A DNA stretch of 35,549 nucleotides from Gemmatimonadales bacterium (GTDB lineage: Bacteria; Gemmatimonadota; Gemmatimonadetes; Gemmatimonadales; JACORV01): positions 1 through 35,549 of the forward strand of contig JADGQW010000007.1 in the NCBI GenBank assembly GCA_017881505.1, written 5' to 3'. The translations under genes and the position numbers were made by a program. Under the pieces are notes generated by a model that was given only the letters and a program-made list of their open reading frames with translations, was not told the DNA's origin and searched no databases. Positions 25,869 to 35,549 of this stretch are shown one piece after another (within the stretch, counting starts at the first letter, position 1; every line of letters begins with the position of its first letter).

Positions 25869-27740
25869 CTACGCGGCGGGGGTGTCCGAAGGCCCTTCCG
25901 CGCCCGCCGACTCCGCCGACTCCGCCGGATCGGCCGGAGCATCCGGAGCGTCCGCCGGCCGGTCGGCCGGCCCACCCTCGTCCACCGGGATGTCGGGCTT
26001 CTTGATCTCGATGAGCGGCACGTCCGGGTACCCCACGACCGCGAGCACGATGCGGTGGTGGATCGGATCGACCTCGAGCACCTTGAGGTCGAGCGCCTGC
26101 CCCTCCTTCACCGCGTCGCCGGGCTGCGAGATGTTCTCCACGCCCAGCTGGCTCATCGGCACGAACCCCTCGAGGTCGTTGCCGAGGTCCACGACGACGC
26201 CCTTGTCCATCAGGCGCACGGCGTGGCCGCGGATCTCGCGTCCCACCGGATAGGTCTCGCCGATGCGGAGCCACGGATCCTCCTCCGCCTGCTTGAGGCC
26301 GAGGGAGATCCGCTTGTTCTCGGGGTCGATGTTCAGGATCACGACGTCAACGGTGTCGCCCTTCTTCACGACCTCCGAGGGGTGCTGCACGCGCTTGGTC
26401 CAGCTCATGTCGGAGATGTGGATCAGGCCGTCGATGCCCGGCTCGATCTCGACAAACGCGCCGAACGACGTGAGGTTGCGGACCTTGCCGGTGATGCGCG
26501 TGCCGACCGGGTACTTGAGCGGCAGCACCATCCACGGGTCCTGCTCCGTCTGCTTCATGCCGAGGGAGATCTTCTCCTCGGCCTCGTCCACCTTCAGGAC
26601 CACCGCCTCGATCGTCTCGCCGATGGAGACGAGCTTCGACGGGTGCCGCACGTTCCGGGTCCACGACATCTCGGAGATGTGGACCAGCCCCTCGATGCCG
26701 GGCTCGAGCTCGATGAACGCGCCGTAGTTCGTGATGGACACGACCTTGCCCTGGACGCGCGTGCCGACCGGGTACTTGGCGGCGACGTTCGTCCACGGGT
26801 ACGCCTGGAGCTGCTTGAGGCCGAGGGAGATGCGCTCCCGCTCCCAGTCGATGTCGAGGATCTTGACCTCGAGCTCCTGGCCGATGTGCACCATCTCCGA
26901 CGGGTGCGAGACGCGCCCGTAGGACATGTCGGTGATGTGCAGCAGGCCGTCCACGCCGCCCAGGTCGATGAACGCGCCGAAGTCGGTGATGTTCTTGACG
27001 ATCCCCTTCCGGACCTGGCCGACCTCCAGCTCCTTCATCAGCCGCTCGCGCTTCGTCGCCCGCTCCGCTTCGAGGATGACGCGGCGCGAGACCACGATGT
27101 TCCGGCGGCGCTTGTTGAGCTTGATGATCTTGAACTGGAAGGCCTGCCCGAGCAGCTCGTCGATGTTCGGGACGCGGCGGAGCGCGATCTGCGAGCCCGG
27201 CAGGAACGCGTCCACGCCCATCAGGTCCACGACCACGCCGCCCTTGATCTTCTTGACCAGCGTGCCCTCGACCGGCTGGTCGCCCTCGTGCGCGATCCGG
27301 ATCTGCTCCCAGACCCGCATGAAGTCGGCCTTCTTCTTGGAGAGCACGACGGCGCCGTCGTCGTCCTCGAGCTTCTCGAGGAAGACCTCGATCTCGTCAC
27401 CCTGCTTGAGGGACTGCGGGTCCTTGAACTCCTCCAGCGGGACCGCGCCCTCGCTCTTGAAGCCGACATCGAGGATGACGGCGTTCTCCGTGACCCGGAG
27501 GACGCGCGACATCACGATCTCGCCTTCCTTGATGTGCTGGACGGACCCCTCGTACATCGCCTTCATCTGCTCGTACTTCTCGTCCGAGTAGCTCTCGTCG
27601 TACAGATCGGCGCGGACGTTCAGTTTGGGAGCGGGAGGCGGGGTCGGGGTCAGAGTCGCGGTCGCGGTCGGGGTCGGGGTCGGGGTGGCGGACGCCAGCT
27701 CCTCGGTATCCCGGGGCGCGTCCTGGGTGGGGGTCGACAT
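25869..27740 (-). CDS. rpsA: 30S ribosomal protein S1
   Basis: A 623-residue S1 (E. coli 557). Six S1 RNA-binding repeats are visible, starting near residues 70, 155, 240, 325, 412 and 500. The last four have the DFGAFIDLG, NYGAFIELE, SFGAFVEIE or GVVVDLG core, and the third to fifth also have HISDMSW-type loops. It binds mRNA leaders at the ribosome. Two terminal extensions are unusual: an N-terminal Thr-Pro/Thr-Ala repeat (about residues 19-36) coded by tandem hexamers, and an acidic Ala/Pro/Asp/Glu-rich C-terminus. A good promoter lies about 85-113 bases upstream, and a small leader hairpin (27759-27775) could serve in autoregulation. cmk-rpsA is a conserved pair. Confidence 0.97.
   Translation of the reverse strand: MSTPTQDAPRDTEELASATPTPTPTATATLTPTPPPAPKLNVRADLYDESYSDEKYEQMKAMYEGSVQHIKEGEIVMSRVLRVTENAVILDVGFKSEGAVPLEEFKDPQSLKQGDEIEVFLEKLEDDDGAVVLSKKKADFMRVWEQIRIAHEGDQPVEGTLVKKIKGGVVVDLMGVDAFLPGSQIALRRVPNIDELLGQAFQFKIIKLNKRRRNIVVSRRVILEAERATKRERLMKELEVGQVRKGIVKNITDFGAFIDLGGVDGLLHITDMSYGRVSHPSEMVHIGQELEVKILDIDWERERISLGLKQLQAYPWTNVAAKYPVGTRVQGKVVSITNYGAFIELEPGIEGLVHISEMSWTRNVRHPSKLVSIGETIEAVVLKVDEAEEKISLGMKQTEQDPWMVLPLKYPVGTRITGKVRNLTSFGAFVEIEPGIDGLIHISDMSWTKRVQHPSEVVKKGDTVDVVILNIDPENKRISLGLKQAEEDPWLRIGETYPVGREIRGHAVRLMDKGVVVDLGNDLEGFVPMSQLGVENISQPGDAVKEGQALDLKVLEVDPIHHRIVLAVVGYPDVPLIEIKKPDIPVDEGGPADRPADAPDAPADPAESAESAGAEGPSDTPAA
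27640..27687. repeat. Tandem hexamer repeat in the rpsA N-terminus
   Basis: Eight contiguous six-base units on the plus strand read GGGGTC twice, AGAGTC, GCGGTC twice, GGGGTC twice and GGGGTG. On the coding strand they give alternating Thr with Pro, Ala or Leu. Gain or loss of units would keep the frame and change only tail length. Confidence 0.85.
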
Positions 27741-27921: not shown

Positions 27922-28585
27922 GGACCAACGCCACGACCTGCCGCACCTGCTCGGCGAAGGAGAGGCGGGTGGTGTCGAGGGGCACGGCGTCGGCCGCGGC
28001 CCGGAGCGGCGCCACGGCGCGACCGGCGTCCTGCGCGTCGCGCGCCTCAAGGAGCGCGGCCTCGTCGCGGATGGAGCAGGCGTCGAGGGACCGGCCCCCC
28101 TCGAGGAGCCGGCGCTTGGCCCGCTCCTCGGGGTCGGCAACGAGGAACACCTTCACCTCGGCGTCGGGAAAGACCACGGTGCCGATGTCGCGGCCGTCCA
28201 TCACCACGCCGCCGCCGCTCGCCGCCTCGCGCAGCAGTCCGTTGACGAAGTCCCGCACCGCCGGCATCGCGGCCACCCGCGAGACCTCCTTCGTCACCGG
28301 CGCGGTGCGCACCGCGCCCCCCACGGCCACCCCGCCCACCGTGACCTCGAGGCGGCTCCCGCGCGGGGTGGCCGAGACGCGGCGCGCCGCGGCCTCAGCG
28401 GCGACCCGCGCGCCCTCCCAGGACTCCGGCGCGCCCAGTCCCTCCAGCGCGACCAGCGTCACCGCGCGGTACACCGCCCCCGAATCCACGTGGCAGAAGC
28501 CGAGGGCCTGCGCCACCGCCTGCGCGGTGGTGCTCTTGCCGCTCGCGGCAGGGCCGTCGATGGCGACGATGGGGCGCCTAGGCAT
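27899..28585 (-). CDS. cmk: Cytidylate kinase
   Basis: A 228-residue (d)CMP kinase of normal length. It starts with IVAIDGPAASGKSTTAQAVA, the Walker A loop (about residues 11-19), followed by HVDSGAVYRAVTL and the substrate-binding VVMDGRDIGTVVFPDAEVKV, then DPEERAKRRLLEGG and PLDTTRLSFAEQV. It phosphorylates CMP and dCMP using ATP. ATG at 28585 overlaps the aroA end by 8 bases, and cmk precedes rpsA, the classical aroA-cmk-rpsA order. The C-terminus (DREAAP and stop) is encoded within a 22-bp tandem repeat. Confidence 0.96.
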   Translation of the reverse strand: MPRRPIVAIDGPAASGKSTTAQAVAQALGFCHVDSGAVYRAVTLVALEGLGAPESWEGARVAAEAAARRVSATPRGSRLEVTVGGVAVGGAVRTAPVTKEVSRVAAMPAVRDFVNGLLREAASGGGVVMDGRDIGTVVFPDAEVKVFLVADPEERAKRRLLEGGRSLDACSIRDEAALLEARDAQDAGRAVAPLRAAADAVPLDTTRLSFAEQVRQVVALVRDREAAP

Positions 28586-29843
28586 CGGTGAGCGCCCGGA
28601 CGAGGTCCTGGAAGAAGCCGGGATAGGAGATGGCCACACACCCCGCGTCGTCCAGCTCCAGTTCCCCGCCGGGCGCGGTGCCCAGGACGGCGAACGCCAT
28701 CGCCAGGCGGTGGTCCCCTGCCGTCTCGACCAAGCCACGGAGGGGCCGGTCGGTGCCGGTCACGCGGAGCGTGTCGGCCTCGGCCACGGCGTCCACCCCC
28801 GCGGCGGCCAGGTTCTTCGCCACCAGCGCCAGCCGGTCGCTCTCCTTCACCCGCAGCTCCCCGACGCCGTGGAACACCGACGTCCCCTCGGCGCGCGCGG
28901 CGAGGCAGGCCAGGAGGGGCACCTCGTCCACCAGCGCCGGGACCTCGTCGGCACGCACCTCCGTGGAGCGGAGGCGCGCGGGCCGCGCCACCAGCGTGGC
29001 ACCGGGTTCGCCGAGGCTCATCCAGCGCCCCTGCACCTCGATGCGCGCCCCCATCCGCTCGATCACCCGGGCGAACCCCGTGCGCGTCGGGTTGATGCCG
29101 ACGCCCTCGACCACGACCTCCCCGCTCCGCCGCAGGAGCCCGGCCGCCAGGAGATACGCGGCCGAGGAGTAGTCGCCGGGGATGTCGCCGTCGAACGGGG
29201 CGATGGACTCCGGCGGATCCACCCGCGTCGCGGTGCCGTCCACGTCCACGTGCACGCCCAGGAGGCGCAGCAGCCGCTCCGCGTGGTCGCGCGAATGGAA
29301 GGGCTCCGTCACGGTGACGCGGACGCCTCCGGTGAGGCCGGCGAAGAAGAGGGCGGTCTTGACCTGGGCGCTCGCGACGGGGCTGTCCCACACGAGGGGC
29401 TTCAGGGCGCCGCCGCGGATCCGCGCGGGGAGGCGGTCCCCGTCGCTGGCCGTGATCTCCGCCCCCATGCGCCGCAGCGGCTCGGCGATCCGCGCCATCG
29501 GTCGGCGACGGAGGCTCCGGTCGCCCGTCAGCGACGCTTCGAAGGCGTGACCCGCGAGGAGCCCCAGGAGGAGTCGCGCCGTGGTGCCCGAGTTCCGGCA
29601 GTCGAGGGTGACGTGGGGGGCACGGAAGGGCCGCAACCCGCCGCCGGTGATCCGGATGGCGCGGTCGGCGCCGAGGGGGCCGACAGTCACGCCGAGGGCG
29701 CGGAGCACCGACGCGGTGGCGCGCGTGTCCCCGGCGGCGAGCGCGCCGCCGAGGCGGCAGCGACCCGACGAGAGCGCCGCGAGCATCAGCGCGCGGTGCG
29801 TGATGGACTTGTCCCCAGGGACCCGGATCCCGCCTCCGCCCAC
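28578..29843 (-). CDS. aroA: 3-phosphoshikimate 1-carboxyvinyltransferase (EPSP synthase)
   Basis: With the GTG at 29843 the protein has 421 residues, near the usual 427. That codon follows GGAGG by 5 bases and leads directly into GIRVPGDKSITHRALML. The frame stays open to an ATG at 29915, but that stretch contains a perfect hairpin and has no good ribosome binding site. Conserved segments are LDCRNSGTTARLLLGLLAG, SAQVKTALFFAGL, DIPGDYSSAAYLLAAG, the catalytic DEVPALVDEVPLLACLAA and LRVKESDRLALV. It joins shikimate 3-phosphate and phosphoenolpyruvate on the way to aromatic amino acids. NSGTTxR and the GDKS motif are intact; the glyphosate-related class was not determined. Confidence 0.95.
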   Translation of the reverse strand: MGGGGIRVPGDKSITHRALMLAALSSGRCRLGGALAAGDTRATASVLRALGVTVGPLGADRAIRITGGGLRPFRAPHVTLDCRNSGTTARLLLGLLAGHAFEASLTGDRSLRRRPMARIAEPLRRMGAEITASDGDRLPARIRGGALKPLVWDSPVASAQVKTALFFAGLTGGVRVTVTEPFHSRDHAERLLRLLGVHVDVDGTATRVDPPESIAPFDGDIPGDYSSAAYLLAAGLLRRSGEVVVEGVGINPTRTGFARVIERMGARIEVQGRWMSLGEPGATLVARPARLRSTEVRADEVPALVDEVPLLACLAARAEGTSVFHGVGELRVKESDRLALVAKNLAAAGVDAVAEADTLRVTGTDRPLRGLVETAGDHRLAMAFAVLGTAPGGELELDDAGCVAISYPGFFQDLVRALTDA

Positions 29844-29883
29844 GCCCACCTCCGCTGCAGCCGTCTCGCGCTCCCCGGAACGA

Positions 29884-29912
29884 CGGGAGGGCCCCGACCG
29901 CTGGCCCTCCCG
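29884..29912 (-). terminator. Perfect 10-bp hairpin after korB
   Basis: CGGGAGGGCC and GGCCCTCCCG are exactly complementary with a 9-base loop. It begins 24 bases past the korB stop on the minus strand and lies before the aroA start. It is probably a terminator or attenuator, and it argues against the ATG at 29915 as the aroA start. Confidence 0.6.
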
Positions 29913-29935
29913 CATGCTCCGGGTCCGCCCCGCCG

Positions 29936-30835
29936 CTACTTGCGCGCGGCGGCGGCCTCGTGGTCCGGGATGAAGCTATGCAGGATGCTCTCGTAGGAGA
30001 ACGGCCCCCGCGCCTGCGCCTTGCGGCGGGCCCGGTCGTGGCCGTCCTCGAACGTCGCCCGCTCCTCGCGGTAGATCAGGCCGAGGCTGATGACCTCCTC
30101 GGTGTTCTCGAAGGCGACGGCGCGCGCCTGGTCCCGGTTCGTCGGGTCGAAGCCCTCGGGGAGCGCGCGAATCCGCTCGCGGACGATGTCGAACTGCTCG
30201 CGCCCGCGGTACGTCACGCACGGCGAGACCATGTGCACGAAGGCGAAGCCGCGGTGCGCGATCGCCGCCGTGATGATCTCCTGCGAGTGCTTCGGGTCGC
30301 CGGAGAAGGCCCGCGCGATGAAGGTGGCGCCGCAGGTGAGCGCCATCAGCACCGGGTTCATCGGCGCCTCGATGTTCCCGTACGAGCTGGTCTTGGTGAC
30401 GAGGTCGTGGGGCGACGTCGGCGACACCTGGCCCTTGGTGAGCCCGTAGATGCCGTTGTCCATGCACACGTAGCTGATGTCGATGTTCCGCCGCGCGGTG
30501 TGCACGAAGTGGCTCGTGCCGATGGCGAAGCCGTCGCCGTCGCCGCCGGCCACCAGCACCGTGAGCCCGGGATTCGCGAGCTTCACGCCCGTCGCGATCG
30601 GCAGCGCGCGGCCGTGGATGGTGTTGAACGAATACGTGTTCACGTACCCGGAGACCCGCGAGCTGCACCCGATGCCGCTCACGAGCACCGTGTTGTCGGG
30701 ATCGAGGTTCAGCTTGGCGAGCGCCTGGTACATGGCGGCCACCACGCCGAAGTCCCCGCACCCCGGGCACCACACGGGCTTGAGGTCCGCCTTGTAGTCC
30801 TTCACTGTCAGCCGAGCCACCGCTTGATGCGCCAT
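29936..30835 (-). CDS. korB: 2-oxoacid:ferredoxin oxidoreductase, beta subunit
   Basis: A 299-residue thiamine-diphosphate subunit. The N-terminal WCPGCGDFGVVAAMYQAL and GIGCSSRVSGYV are hallmark segments (the CPGC and GCS cysteines are conserved in this group). The cofactor site runs GGDGDGFAIGTSHFVH through MDNGIYGLTKGQVSPTS. It pairs with KorA to oxidise 2-oxoglutarate (or another 2-oxoacid) to the CoA thioester with ferredoxin as acceptor, or to run in reverse. ATG at 30835 is preceded by GAGGAGG, and the korA stop is 14 bases upstream. 2-Oxoglutarate is the most likely substrate by overall pattern but is not proven. No ferredoxin domain is present. Confidence 0.93.
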   Translation of the reverse strand: MAHQAVARLTVKDYKADLKPVWCPGCGDFGVVAAMYQALAKLNLDPDNTVLVSGIGCSSRVSGYVNTYSFNTIHGRALPIATGVKLANPGLTVLVAGGDGDGFAIGTSHFVHTARRNIDISYVCMDNGIYGLTKGQVSPTSPHDLVTKTSSYGNIEAPMNPVLMALTCGATFIARAFSGDPKHSQEIITAAIAHRGFAFVHMVSPCVTYRGREQFDIVRERIRALPEGFDPTNRDQARAVAFENTEEVISLGLIYREERATFEDGHDRARRKAQARGPFSYESILHSFIPDHEAAAARK

Positions 30836-30849
30836 GCGTTCCGTCCTCC

Positions 30850-32634
30850 TCAGTCCGCTGCCACGCGCCGGCCGTCCGCCCCGAGCCAGGCCAGCACTTC
30901 GTCCACGCCGAGGGGCGCGCCGCCCGCCCGCGCATGCCGCACCAGCCGCGCCGCGACCGCCGCGCTCAGCTGGCTCTTCAGGAACGTGTAGAACTGCGCC
31001 GAGTACGACAGCTCGACCACGTGGATCGCCCGGAGCCCCGCGAGCGCCGCCTCGACCTCGGCGACGGGGAACGGCCAGAGGAGCCGCGGCACCACCGCCC
31101 GCGCCTTCACGCCCACCGCCTGCAGCGCGGCCACCGCCTCGAGCGCCGCGCCCTTGCAGGACCCCCACGCGAGGATGCCGATCTCCGCGTCCGGGGCGCC
31201 CGCCACGACCGTCAGGTGTGGGTAGTGCTCCGCGACGGTGTCCAGCTTCTTCCAGCGCTTCTCCGTCATCTGCTGATGCCCGGCGACGCCCGAGAGTGGC
31301 GCGCCGACCACGTCGTGCTCGAGCCCCGAATTGAGGTACGAGCCCCCCGCCATCCCGGGGATGGACATCGGGCTGATCCGGTCGTCGGTCGCGGCGAAGC
31401 GCGCGAAGCCGTGGCGGTGGGCCACTGCCGCGAGCGCCTCGTCGGTGGGCTTCTTCCGGTCCCGCACCACGAGCTTCGACAAGTCGAAGGGCCGCACGAT
31501 CTCGGTGCGGTGGCCGACGAACTGGTCGGAGAGGACGAGCACCGGCGTCTGGTACTCCTCCGCGATGTTGAACGCGTCGACCGTCACCCAGAAGCAGTCC
31601 TCGACGTCGGTCGTCCCCACCACGACCTTCGAGGCGTCGCCGTGCGTGCCGAAGATGCCCTGCAGCAGGTCCCCCTGCTCCGTCTTCGTCGGGATGCCCG
31701 TCGAGGGCCCGACGCGCTGCACGTTCAGCACCACGAGGGGGATCTCGGCGATGGACGCAAGGCCGATCGCCTCCTGCTTCAGCGAGATGCCCGGCCCCGA
31801 CGACGCCGTCATGGACTTCACGCCCGCGTACGACGCGCCGATGGACATCGCGATGGAGGCGAGCTCGTCCTCGCCCTGGACCATCGTGCCGCCGAACTTC
31901 GGCAGCTCGCGGTTCAGGAACTCCATCACCTCCGACTGCGGGGTGATCGGGTAGCTCGCGATGAACCGGCAGCCGGCGGCCAGCGCCCCGAAGCCCGTCG
32001 CGTCGTTGCCCGCGATGATCATCATCGGCTCGCTCGTGGCCGGCGCGAGATGCACGTCGCCCTTCCGGTACTGCGTGGCGATCTCCGCGCCCGCGGCGAG
32101 GGCCGCGACGTTCGCCGCGACGACCTTCTCCCCCTTCTTCGCGAACCGCCGGCCGATCGCCTTCACGAACCCTTCGGTCGGGAGGTTCAGCGCCCCCGCG
32201 AGCACGCCGACCGCCACGATGTTCTTCGCCAGCGCGGTGCCCGCCTTCTCGACGGCGATCTGCTCGAAGGGGATCCGGCGGACGGCCGCCTTCAGCGGCT
32301 CCGCGAGCGGGATGTCTGCTTCGGGCGTTTTGTCCTGCTCGTCCACGAAGATGATGGTCTGCGCGTTCGGGACCAGTTCGCTGCGGAACCGCGCGTAGTC
32401 GGCCCAGTTGAACGCGATCAGGACGTCGAGCTCGTCACCCTGCGAGAGCACCGGCTCGGAGGAGAGCCGAAGGCGGATCGAGGACTCGCCGCCGCGGATC
32501 TGCGGCCCGAAGGACTTCACCAGCATGCCGAACAGCCCCTGTTGGGCGGCGACGTTGAGCGCCAATTCGCCGGCGGAGACGACGCCGTCGCCTCCGGCGC
32601 CCGCCATCCCCACCACCAAGTCCCTGCGAGACAT
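30850..32634 (-). CDS. korA: 2-oxoacid:ferredoxin oxidoreductase, fused gamma-alpha subunit
   Basis: A 594-residue protein in which a gamma domain (about 1-190, with VVGMAGAGGDGVVSAGELA and SFGPQIRGGESSIRL) is fused to the alpha domain (about 205-594, with FIASYPITPQSEVMEFL, QGEDELASIAMSIGASYAG and TASSGPGISLKQEAIG). This gamma-alpha fusion with a separate KorB is the usual aerobic-bacterial two-subunit layout. ATG at 32634 follows GGGAGGAAG; the longer frame into the promoter region is rejected. It probably works with KorB in a 2-oxoglutarate step of the TCA cycle. It is divergent from the GspE-like gene. Confidence 0.93.
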   Translation of the reverse strand: MSRRDLVVGMAGAGGDGVVSAGELALNVAAQQGLFGMLVKSFGPQIRGGESSIRLRLSSEPVLSQGDELDVLIAFNWADYARFRSELVPNAQTIIFVDEQDKTPEADIPLAEPLKAAVRRIPFEQIAVEKAGTALAKNIVAVGVLAGALNLPTEGFVKAIGRRFAKKGEKVVAANVAALAAGAEIATQYRKGDVHLAPATSEPMMIIAGNDATGFGALAAGCRFIASYPITPQSEVMEFLNRELPKFGGTMVQGEDELASIAMSIGASYAGVKSMTASSGPGISLKQEAIGLASIAEIPLVVLNVQRVGPSTGIPTKTEQGDLLQGIFGTHGDASKVVVGTTDVEDCFWVTVDAFNIAEEYQTPVLVLSDQFVGHRTEIVRPFDLSKLVVRDRKKPTDEALAAVAHRHGFARFAATDDRISPMSIPGMAGGSYLNSGLEHDVVGAPLSGVAGHQQMTEKRWKKLDTVAEHYPHLTVVAGAPDAEIGILAWGSCKGAALEAVAALQAVGVKARAVVPRLLWPFPVAEVEAALAGLRAIHVVELSYSAQFYTFLKSQLSAAVAARLVRHARAGGAPLGVDEVLAWLGADGRRVAAD

Positions 32635-32685
32635 CAGCTTCCTCCCGGCGGTCAGGCACTCGAGCGGTCTGACCGAATGACGACA

Positions 32686-32714
32686 ATCTAACTTCACTTA
32701 CAGTGTGGAAACAA
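32686..32714 (-). promoter_or_regulatory. Weak candidate promoter of korA-korB
   Basis: TTGTTT (32714-32709), 17 bases and TTAGAT (32691-32686) on the minus strand match consensus at three positions each. The AT-rich patch at 32676-32730 is the only promoter-like region between the divergent genes. Confidence 0.3.
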
Positions 32715-32726
32715 ACGCCGTATCTT
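32698..32726 (+). promoter_or_regulatory. Candidate promoter of the GspE-like gene, possibly leaderless
   Basis: TATCTT (32721-32726) lies 8 bases before the ATG at 32735 and fits a -10 element; the -35 at 17 bases (TTACAG, 32698-32703) is poor. No Shine-Dalgarno precedes the ATG. This parallels the kinase gene at 15425 (TAAGTT, 7 bases, GTG). Confidence 0.35.
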
Positions 32727-32734
32727 CGCTCGCT

Positions 32735-34960
32735 ATGGGCAACCGCCGTGCCACGCCGACGCCTGGCGCCGTTCGATTCCCCCGCGACGCCTGGGCTCTC
32801 GGCGCGCTCGAACGTGCTCAGGTGGTCGAGGGAGAGGCGCTGGCGGGGCTGCGCGGCGAGGAGACCGAGTGGATTGCCACCGCCGCCGTCCGACGGGGGG
32901 CGGCGCCCGAGGCGGTGGCCGCGGCGCTCGCGAAGGCGGCCCACGTGGGGGTCGCGCGCCTCGACGAGCTGGACCCAGCGGCCGCGCACTTCATCCCCGA
33001 GACCGTGGCGCGCCAATACCTGGCGCTGCCCCTCGCAGCGACCAACCGCACCATCCGCATCGCCAGCGCGAACCCGACGGACCTTCATGCGGAGCAGGCG
33101 CTGGGCTTCGTGGCCGGGCGCCAGGTGGAATTCCAGTACGCCCTCCCGGAGGAGATCCTGCAGCGGCTGGATGCGGTCTACCGCCCGGAGCGGCCGATCG
33201 ACCGGCTGCTGATCGGGCTCGGGACGCGCGCGGGCCTCGTGGCCGAGGGCGATGCCCGCACCCCCGGCGGGTCGACCGGCGCGGAGACGCCGGCCGCCAA
33301 GCTCGTCGCCGCGACGATCGCCGACGCCGTGCGCGAGCGCGCCAGCGACATCCTCTTCGAGCCGACCGACACGAGCCTCGTCGTCCGCTACCGTGTGGAC
33401 GGCGTGCTGCGCGAGGTGATGCGCGTGCCGCTGGCCGCCGCCGGGTCGGTCGTGCGCCGCCTCAAGGTGCTCGCGAAGCTCGACATCGCCGACCCGCGGC
33501 ACGCCCACACCGGGCGCGCGTCGGCCACCTTCGGCGAGCGAGGGTGGGACCTGCGCATCGCGACCGTGCCGGTCGGCAGCGTCGGCGAACAGGTGACGGT
33601 CCGGCTCTTCGACGCCCAGTCCGGCGTACCCACGCTCACCCGCCAGGGCTTCCTGCCGGACGACGTGGCGGCGCTCGAGGGCCTCCTCGGGCAGCGCTCC
33701 GGCGTGGTGCTGGTGACGGGCCCCGCGGGATGTGGCGCGACCGCGGCCCTCTATGCCGGGCTCGAGCGGGCCCGGGCGGCCGGGGCGAAGGTCGCGACGG
33801 TCGAGGATGCGATCGAGTACCGGCTGAAGGACACGACGCAGATCGAGGTGGCGGAGGAGAAGGACTCGCCGTTCGCGGAGGGGCTGCGGTCGGCGCTCAA
33901 GGGGACCGTGGAGGCCGTGCTGGTGGGCAACGTGCCCGACGCGGAGACGGCGAAGGTCGTATGGCAAGCGTCCGCGGGCCGGACGGTCCTTGCGCGGCTC
34001 CACACCCGTGACGCGGCGGCGGCGGCGACGCAGCTCGCGGCCCTTGGCATCGAGCCATCCCGCATCCCTTCGGCGCTCAAGGGCATCGTCGCGCTGCGGC
34101 GGCTGCGGCGGCTCTGTCCGCGCTGCGCGATCCCGGCGGCGCCCGAGGCCCTGCCTCCCGCGGCGCGCCCCGGAGCGGGGATCGGACCGACGACGACGCT
34201 GATGACCGGCCGCGGGTGCGCGGAGTGCAGCTTCACCGGCTACCGGGGCGAGCTGGCGATCGCCGAGATCCTGCTCGTGGAGGGAGGGGTCGCCGAGACG
34301 ATCGCCCGCGGCGCGCCGGTCGAGCAGGTCGTCGAGGCCGCGCGACGCGCCGGCATGCGCACGTTGTACGGAGCGGCGCTGCGGCGCGTCTGGGACGGGG
34401 CGACCAGCTACGACGAGCTGGTCCGCGTCCTCGGCGAACCGGCCGGGCGAGCGGTCGCCGCCGGGGCGGACGCGGAGGAGGTGGTCGTCGCCCTCACCGC
34501 GCCGCTCCCCGGGAGGGCCGTCGCGCCGCCACGGGCTCACGGGGCCGCGGCGGCCACCGGGCTGCAGGCCCCTGCGGGGCCCGCGCCGCTGGTCCTCGTG
34601 GCGGATGACGACCCGCAGCTGCGGAAGCTGGTGCGGGGGATCCTCACTCCCCAGGGGTTCCAGGTCGCCGAGGCGGAGGACGGGATCGCCGCGCTGGACG
34701 AGGCGCAGCGGCTACGGCCCGACGTGATGCTGCTCGACATGGACATGCCGCGGCTCGACGGGCTGGGGGTGCTCGACACGCTGCGACAGCGGCTCCTGGG
34801 CCGCTCCGTGCCCGTCATCGTCGTGACGGTCCACAACGACCCCGCGGTCGAGACCCGGTGCATCGAGCTGGGCGCCGAGGACTACATCACCAAACCGCTC
34901 CAGCCGGCGTCGCTGGTGGCGCGCATCCGTGCCGTCCTGCGCCGCGTGGGGACCAAGTGA
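32735..34960 (+). CDS. GspE/PilB-like protein with degenerate ATPase site fused to a receiver domain
   Basis: With ATG at 32735 the protein has 741 residues; a GTG at 32705 would add ten residues coded by unusually AT-rich codons. Residues about 30-150 resemble the GspE/MshE N-terminal domain, and about 180-560 the secretion-ATPase body, with ASDILFEP, VRYRVDGVLRE, the Asp box TVEDAIEY (355-362), the His box LHTRDA (422-427) and zinc-type cysteine pairs C461/C464 and C495/C498. The Walker A is GPAGCGAT (329-336): the lysine is alanine. The Walker B region reads VLVGNVPDAETA instead of the usual MVGEIRDxETA, so the catalytic Glu is lost. A complete receiver domain follows (about 618-735; D624, D625, D668, K720). 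It is therefore probably a regulatory protein, not a pilus motor. The single-domain regulator gene overlaps its stop. Confidence 0.88.
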   Translation: MGNRRATPTPGAVRFPRDAWALGALERAQVVEGEALAGLRGEETEWIATAAVRRGAAPEAVAAALAKAAHVGVARLDELDPAAAHFIPETVARQYLALPLAATNRTIRIASANPTDLHAEQALGFVAGRQVEFQYALPEEILQRLDAVYRPERPIDRLLIGLGTRAGLVAEGDARTPGGSTGAETPAAKLVAATIADAVRERASDILFEPTDTSLVVRYRVDGVLREVMRVPLAAAGSVVRRLKVLAKLDIADPRHAHTGRASATFGERGWDLRIATVPVGSVGEQVTVRLFDAQSGVPTLTRQGFLPDDVAALEGLLGQRSGVVLVTGPAGCGATAALYAGLERARAAGAKVATVEDAIEYRLKDTTQIEVAEEKDSPFAEGLRSALKGTVEAVLVGNVPDAETAKVVWQASAGRTVLARLHTRDAAAAATQLAALGIEPSRIPSALKGIVALRRLRRLCPRCAIPAAPEALPPAARPGAGIGPTTTLMTGRGCAECSFTGYRGELAIAEILLVEGGVAETIARGAPVEQVVEAARRAGMRTLYGAALRRVWDGATSYDELVRVLGEPAGRAVAAGADAEEVVVALTAPLPGRAVAPPRAHGAAAATGLQAPAGPAPLVLVADDDPQLRKLVRGILTPQGFQVAEAEDGIAALDEAQRLRPDVMLLDMDMPRLDGLGVLDTLRQRLLGRSVPVIVVTVHNDPAVETRCIELGAEDYITKPLQPASLVARIRAVLRRVGTK

Positions 34961-35325
34961 CCGTGGCCAAGATCCTCATCGTCGAAGACAACGCCGACAA
35001 CATGAAGCTGTTCCGGGCCGTGCTCACGCTCCGCGGGCACGCCGTGACGGGCCTCCCCGGCGGCGAGGGGCTGGTGGACACCGTGGCCGGGGAACGCCCC
35101 GACATGATCCTCCTCGACATCCAGCTCCCGGGGGCGGACGGCTACCAGCTCCTGGCGCTGCTCCGCGGCGCGCTGCCGGCGCTGCCGCCGGTGGTGGCCC
35201 TCACGGCGCACGCGATGAGCGGCGACCGGGAACGCGCGCTGGCGGCGGGGTTCGACGGGTACCTGACGAAGCCGATCGACGTGGCGACGTTCGGGGAGAC
35301 GGTGGAGGCGTTCATCCACCGGTAG
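34957..35325 (+). CDS. Single-domain response regulator (CheY/DivK-like)
   Basis: A 122-residue receiver domain with no output domain. ILIVEDNADNMKLFRAVL has the acidic pocket (E10, D11), D54 in ILLDIQLPGADG is the phospho-acceptor, with T83 in LTAHAM and K105 in YLTKPID. The EDNADNM pattern is typical of DivK and hybrid-kinase receivers. GTG at 34957 overlaps the stop of the preceding gene as GTGA, so both are translated together. A phosphorelay or partner-binding role with the fused receiver is likely. The kinase is not in the window next to it. Confidence 0.93.
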   Translation: MTVAKILIVEDNADNMKLFRAVLTLRGHAVTGLPGGEGLVDTVAGERPDMILLDIQLPGADGYQLLALLRGALPALPPVVALTAHAMSGDRERALAAGFDGYLTKPIDVATFGETVEAFIHR

Positions 35326-35331
35326 CCGTCC

Positions 35332-35549
35332 TCAGTGCGGGTGGCGATGCCGGAGGATGTGCGGCTTCTCCAGCCCGAGCTCGAGCATCCGGGCCTCGTC
35401 GGCCAGCACCTCGGCCGGCGGACCTTCCCCCACGACCGCTCCGCGATCCAACACGATCACCCGCGCGCACGTCTCGACGACCAGCTCCAGGTCGTGGGTC
35501 GCGATGATCTGCGCGACCGGCAACACCCGGAGCAGCGCCTTGAGCTCGC
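35332..35549 (-). CDS. ABC transporter ATP-binding protein, C-terminal fragment (CbiO/EcfA type)
   Basis: Only the last 72 codons are in the window; the gene continues off the right edge. The visible end has the H-loop region QIIATHDLELVVETCARVI, then VLDRGAVVGEGPPAEVLADE, LELGLEKP and a His-rich tail HILRHRHPH. This is the usual end of the ATPase in energy-coupling-factor or cobalt/nickel importers, in which the LGLEKP segment is common. The His-rich tail favours a metal substrate, but that is only a hint. Walker A, signature and Walker B motifs lie outside. The gene is convergent with the response regulator, only 6 bases away. Confidence 0.85.
   Translation of the reverse strand, partial: ELKALLRVLPVAQIIATHDLELVVETCARVIVLDRGAVVGEGPPAEVLADEARMLELGLEKPHILRHRHPH

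Follow-up and report, generated by a model that had tools for sequence, protein, structure and literature searches.

The gene at positions 32735..34960 (+) of the window, that is, of the whole stretch of 35,549 nucleotides analysed, which makes up one entire contig of a 2.8 Mb draft genome, is rather likely, as judged from sequence comparisons, to be the orthologue of a receiver-fused pilus or secretion motor that has lost both ATP binding and ATP hydrolysis and has since been retained for signalling as a pseudo-ATPase. The observed part of this reading consists of the residue losses, the orthology, the loss at the level of a clade, the constraint retained thereafter and the fold prediction. 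In particular, the loss of the ATP-binding residue next to an almost unchanged receiver (REC) domain suggests that in this branch of the Gemmatimonadota, which are soil bacteria, a motor became a regulator.

The open frame extends from 32705 to 34960 (+) and codes for 751 residues, or for 741 if counted from the ATG at 32735, which matches the N-termini of the orthologues better than the alternative GTG start at 32705. According to Pfam, this one frame carries an MshEN-like N-terminal domain (PF05157; residues 87-163, 32963..33193, +), a degenerate T2SSE ATPase region composed of N2D and CTD (residues 195-574, 33287..34426, +) with a score of 269.5 bits at a cut-off of 24.9 bits, and a Response_reg domain (residues 630-742, 34592..34930, +). 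The AlphaFold model of the protein is confident (pLDDT 87), with a pTM of 0.63 that makes the placement of the domains relative to each other unreliable, and the predicted fold matches the 5oiu, 5it5 and 5tsh chains (PilB/PilF/GspE) at TM values of 0.79-0.88 of the target. The protein belongs to the GspE/PilB fold family, and in NCBIfam it misses the equivalog cut-offs of both namesakes, with listed scores of 312 bits for PilB (cut-off 676) and 345 bits for GspE (cut-off 630).

Residue roles were transferred by alignment from PilB of Geobacter metallireducens (PMC5424180), and residues of the window protein are given in P0001 numbering. The Walker A motif (33719..33754, +) reads GPAGCGATAALY where the homologues have GPTGSGKTTTLY, its core being GPAGCGAT as compared to GPTGSGKT, with K345 replaced by alanine at codon 33737-33739 (GCG). 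In the Walker B region EAVLVGNVPD (33911..33940, +), which ends in LVGNVPD as compared to LVGEIRD, the catalytic E409 is replaced by asparagine (codon 33929-33931) and R411 by proline. The preliminary description of this DNA, which had reported a pseudo-ATPase with an alanine in place of the Walker A lysine, a missing Walker B glutamate and a full receiver domain at the C-terminus, is thus correct on each of these points (Ala345, Asn409), as the REC domain has all residues of a phosphorylatable receiver, namely the acidic pair D634 and D635, the phospho-Asp D678, T708 and K730. Also its statement that the Asp box and the cysteine pairs persist agrees with the Asp box TVEDAIEYR (33797..33823, +), which retains the Mg-coordinating glutamate E371, and with the tetra-cysteine zinc motif (34115..34228, +; 34115-34126 and 34217-34228), in which C471, C474, C505 and C508 are all present. 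With respect to the His box (33980..34003, +), likewise described as persisting, this holds for H433 (PilB His420) but not for the equivalent of PilB H413, where Arg426 is found. Further retained residues of the ATPase are T346, the arginine fingers R284 and R300, and the inter-chain arginine (R455 in PilB, R469 here).

Downstream, the gene for the single-domain response regulator RR2 (34957..35325, +) begins with a GTG at 34957 and shares four bases (GTGA) with the TGA stop of the pseudo-ATPase gene; the second receiver gene overlapping this stop, as noted before, is therefore real, and its position is conserved, RR2 being in place in all seven genomes of the window's family (f1). Upstream lies a divergently oriented gene for a 2-oxoacid:ferredoxin oxidoreductase, alpha/gamma (30850..32697, -), the start of which is likely near 32637, followed by aroA (EPSP synthase; 28578..29915, -), which together with rpsA (25869-27740) serves as syntenic anchor. 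Only in genus g1, which includes the window, and in g3 do genes of this oxidoreductase (29936-32697 in the window) separate aroA from GspE-REC. At the contig end, a minus-strand frame at 35332-35549 resembles the C-terminus of an ABC transporter ATPase, and the encoded fragment of 71 residues has no Pfam match.

The fusion to a receiver is not in itself the new feature of this protein and was rejected as such. Matches to its REC domain at E<=1e-24 are found in 163 of the 288 genomes of the order, mostly in open frames of about 750 residues, and the GspE-REC fusion is therefore a normal architecture of the Gemmatimonadota. These fusions occur order-wide, as if receiver control of pilus or secretion motors were the rule, and no paper on this was found among those with an open licence. 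What appears to be new is the natural loss of catalysis combined with a retained and even tightened constraint on the REC domain, in an architecture that is common in the phylum; none of the open-licence papers searched describes a receiver-bearing GspE/PilB pseudo-ATPase that occurs in nature. As to the presence of a canonical PilB and of other pilus genes in the same genome, which had been named as a point to be checked, a pilB-pilT-pilC group resides on contig C202, with a PilB that scores 769 bits at the NCBIfam cut-off of 676. In addition, the genome contains two GspE-REC paralogues with intact motifs (contigs C226 and C103), which are 37-39% identical to the window protein, as well as other genes of the T2SSE family.

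The GspE-REC fusions split into a subtype A (LVDDE, LDLNLP) and a subtype B (ADDD, LDMDMP-like), and the window protein belongs to subtype B, the genes of which adjoin aroA-cmk-rpsA and have the same single-domain receiver gene behind them. In family f3 the operon continues with a protein of about 170 residues and then with a prepilin carrying an N-methylation motif. The four f3 loci L074:4939-8698, L073:8803-13510, L071:2526-6262 and L072:5214-8650 join an intact GspE-REC gene, the single-domain receiver, the protein of about 170 residues, which has no Pfam match, and the prepilin, and this compact locus may represent a small pilus or endopilus system under receiver control.

Every subtype B protein from family f3 and from genus g2 has its Walker motifs intact, a finding that could have meant that the window carries just one decaying copy. 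However, the sister genus g3 lacks the lysine as well, so that the gene in the window is no isolated case of decay. Altogether three subtype B proteins, all of them from draft assemblies, are without the lysine: the window protein and two from g3, one in genome G004 with GPTDSGTT (Lys to Thr) and one in G006 with GPTDSGAT (Lys to Ala). The g3 copies retain the catalytic glutamate and have lost both His-box histidines. No further such homologue was found among the 30 loci whose REC domains are most similar, 26 having an intact GKT P-loop and one (L122) being cut off, while the remaining three are those already named.

In trees built with and without the motif columns and under two models, the window protein and the two g3 proteins form one clade that is sister to g2 (support 100/99 and 99/98), and a tree constrained to place the window next to g2 fails the AU test (p = 0.008). 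This topology agrees with the presence of the oxidoreductase neighbour in g1 and g3 and its absence in g2, a character that is independent of the tree; a decaying singleton is thereby rejected. Moreover, the three proteins have H413R (PilB numbering) as well as A291G, V370I, Q381E, D403E and A709V (window numbering) in common. Because they form one well-supported clade, the simplest reading of these sequences is that the Walker A lysine was probably lost once, before g1 and g3 split. For the common ancestor of G004 and G006 the lysine was almost certainly already missing, since both also have in common GPTDSG and the change of His420 to Arg.

With the loss being ancestral to G004 and G006, this pair reports on selection after the loss. 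The dN/dS ratios between them (NG86, with 95% bootstrap intervals) are 0.27 (0.15-0.43) for the N domain, 0.29 (0.16-0.59) for N2D, 0.30 (0.21-0.43) for CTD and 0.045 (0.01-0.10) for REC, the corresponding values of an intact g2 pair being 0.19, 0.06, 0.15 and 0.10. Purifying selection has hence continued between the g3 copies, at 0.27-0.30 in the N and ATPase domains, and with ratios of 0.30 for the ATPase core and 0.045 for REC the gene is not free to drift. In a maximum likelihood codon model of seven sequences, omega = 1 is rejected for the lysine-less clade in every domain (LRT 128-287); this rejection is all that was taken from the model, as synonymous distances at their bounds (saturated dS on the deeper branches) make its absolute omegas unusable. 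In terms of identity between the two g3 genomes, REC is as conserved as ribosomal protein S1 (RpsA), at 96% each, with CTD at 75% and AroA, the oxidoreductase and RR2 at 84%, 85% and 91%, respectively.

The window protein itself evolves fast, as its end branch of 0.66, compared to 0.12 in the intact pair, reveals. At columns without any variation among nine intact homologues it is changed in 32 of 95 positions of the CTD and 12 of 41 of the N2D, in contrast to 1 of 24 in the N domain and 1 of 37 in REC, and leaving out each of the intact homologues in turn yields 0-4 changes per domain. A sequencing error or single-base artefact behind the lost residues is excluded by the number of concerted changes in the core (see the CTD columns above). 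For the g3 pair, the values given above mean that constraint on the ATPase has loosened without being lost, and that REC is now the best conserved part of the protein.

The main rival to the regulator reading is slow gene loss, according to which the motor became useless once its partner genes had left the locus, the ATPase part being eroded towards deletion and REC serving as a phosphate sink or mere remnant. The gene is intact in two of the seven f1 genomes, lysine-less in three from two genera, and cleanly absent from one further g3 genome (G002) and one g2 genome (G003), both of which still have RR2 in place, so that in this family the gene is dispensable. At the same time, none of the seven f1 genomes has the small partner protein known from the f3 operon, as compared to all four f3 genomes tested, and no prepilin was found at the f1 locus; the motor function has lost its setting in the window's family, which together with the dispensability of the gene is the main argument for such a loss. 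The accelerated evolution of the window's ATPase also speaks for it. However, the frames of the window and G004 are open, and the frameshift in G006 was rejected as a sign of decay, as the frame breaks exactly at an assembly gap (NN). Also a dN/dS far below 1 in the ATPase and N domains of a pair with ancestral loss, and a REC domain conserved to the degree of a ribosomal protein, are difficult to reconcile with erosion, and slow loss is therefore considered unlikely, albeit the strongest of the rivals. In G002 and G003 the receiver gene stands alone at the corresponding position (L086:4957-5423 and L087:1661-2163), and since it was left behind there without GspE-REC it probably serves a function that does not depend on the motor.

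Less probable still is a mixed hexamer in which the protein would act as a non-catalytic subunit together with an intact GspE-REC paralogue or with PilB, contributing residues in trans, such as the arginine fingers, without having an ATP site of its own. The inter-chain arginine and the two arginine fingers have indeed been kept while the cis-acting lysine and glutamate were lost, two intact paralogues are available in the same genome, and by analogy an ATPase-dead PilT works alongside PilU, Walker mutants of PilT in V. cholerae still supporting retraction with PilU (PMC11656802). On the other hand, the sequence identity to these paralogues is low (see above), and the pattern of losses is not uniform, given that the g3 copies have the catalytic glutamate but neither of the His-box histidines. 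That the protein is still an ATPase with an unusual P-loop is highly improbable on sequence grounds, as the persistence of the Walker A threonine, the Mg-Glu, the arginine fingers and one histidine is outweighed by the loss of both the lysine, the replacement of which by alanine strongly lowers ATP binding in PilB (PMC5544727), and the catalytic glutamate, which PilB requires for hydrolysis (PMC5424180), as well as of dozens of core residues that do not vary elsewhere.

As for a ligand, the preliminary description had suggested that the N-terminal domain may bind cyclic di-GMP. The MshEN motif for this nucleotide comprises 24 residues and occurs twice with a spacer of five residues (PMC5013675). 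The window protein scores 4 of 11 for the 24-residue motif and 7 of 22 for the double motif, whereas the PilB of the same genome (L067:10004-11725), which served as positive control, scores 11 of 11 for the first and 20 of 22 for the double motif. A cyclic di-GMP receptor is thus rejected on this test, the nucleotide being an unlikely ligand of the window protein, and the true pili of this genome are in turn probably under cyclic di-GMP control.

Returning to the regulator reading, the fold that has been retained, the purifying selection that has continued and the very strong constraint on REC speak for the proposed scaffold or regulator in place of a motor, the role itself being inferred from these. 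The GspE/PilB core would be fixed in a nucleotide-free-like conformation and act as a scaffold, phosphorylation of REC would change what the pseudo-ATPase binds, and an exchange of phosphate with the single-domain receiver of the same operon might perhaps contribute. Likely targets would be the PilB/PilC machine of the cell itself or a surface or biofilm output. In its most specific form, which is put forward tentatively, a phospho-switched apo-PilB scaffold with a second receiver in its operon would be held in the nucleotide-free signalling state and signal without ever assembling a pilus. The nearest functional precedent, by analogy, is PilB of Myxococcus with the Walker A mutation K327A. 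This mutant has poor ATP binding and is similar to the apo form, and although it cannot assemble pili it signals exopolysaccharide production (PMC5544727). Nucleotide-free signalling by PilB has so far been proposed from this laboratory mutant; a natural lineage in which the lysine was lost before two genera diverged, while selection on REC remained strong, would put the idea to an evolutionary test, with the intact g2 orthologues, the lysine-less g1 and g3 orthologues and the deleted copies as a ready comparison set. The case also illustrates that a two-component input may be left standing once its former motor is dismantled.

Compared to known systems, the window protein has the fold of PilB and GspE (PilT-like ASCE ATPases; 5tsg, 5oiu, 4ksr), their order of MshEN-like domain, N2D and CTD, the tetra-cysteine motif, the arginine fingers and the Asp-box glutamate, but it lacks the Walker A lysine and the catalytic glutamate, has an additional REC domain and remains far below their equivalog cut-offs. 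Its architecture is identical to that of the other GspE-REC proteins of the Gemmatimonadota, i.e. subtype A (C226) and subtype B (f3 and g2), the latter being true orthologues with the same following receiver gene and the same aroA-cmk-rpsA neighbours; in contrast to the window protein, these have intact Walker motifs, and the f3 locus still has the prepilin and the small partner. With PilB K327A of Myxococcus xanthus (PMC5544727) it has in common a lysine-less P-loop in a PilB fold that is tied to signalling and not to assembly, as is proposed here, but the former was made in the laboratory from a working motor that has no REC, whereas the change in the window is natural and ancestral to two genera. 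The MshE/MshEN receptors (PMC5013675), for which associations of MshEN with REC are on record, likewise match the N-terminal MshEN Pfam domain and differ by the cyclic di-GMP motif missing here. Finally, FimX-type regulators (PMC11656802) also combine REC with a degenerate enzymatic domain, and FimX regulates pili; however, FimX is a REC-PAS-GGDEF-EAL protein whose REC is without the phospho-Asp, whereas the window protein has a complete REC, and its dead domain is that of the motor.
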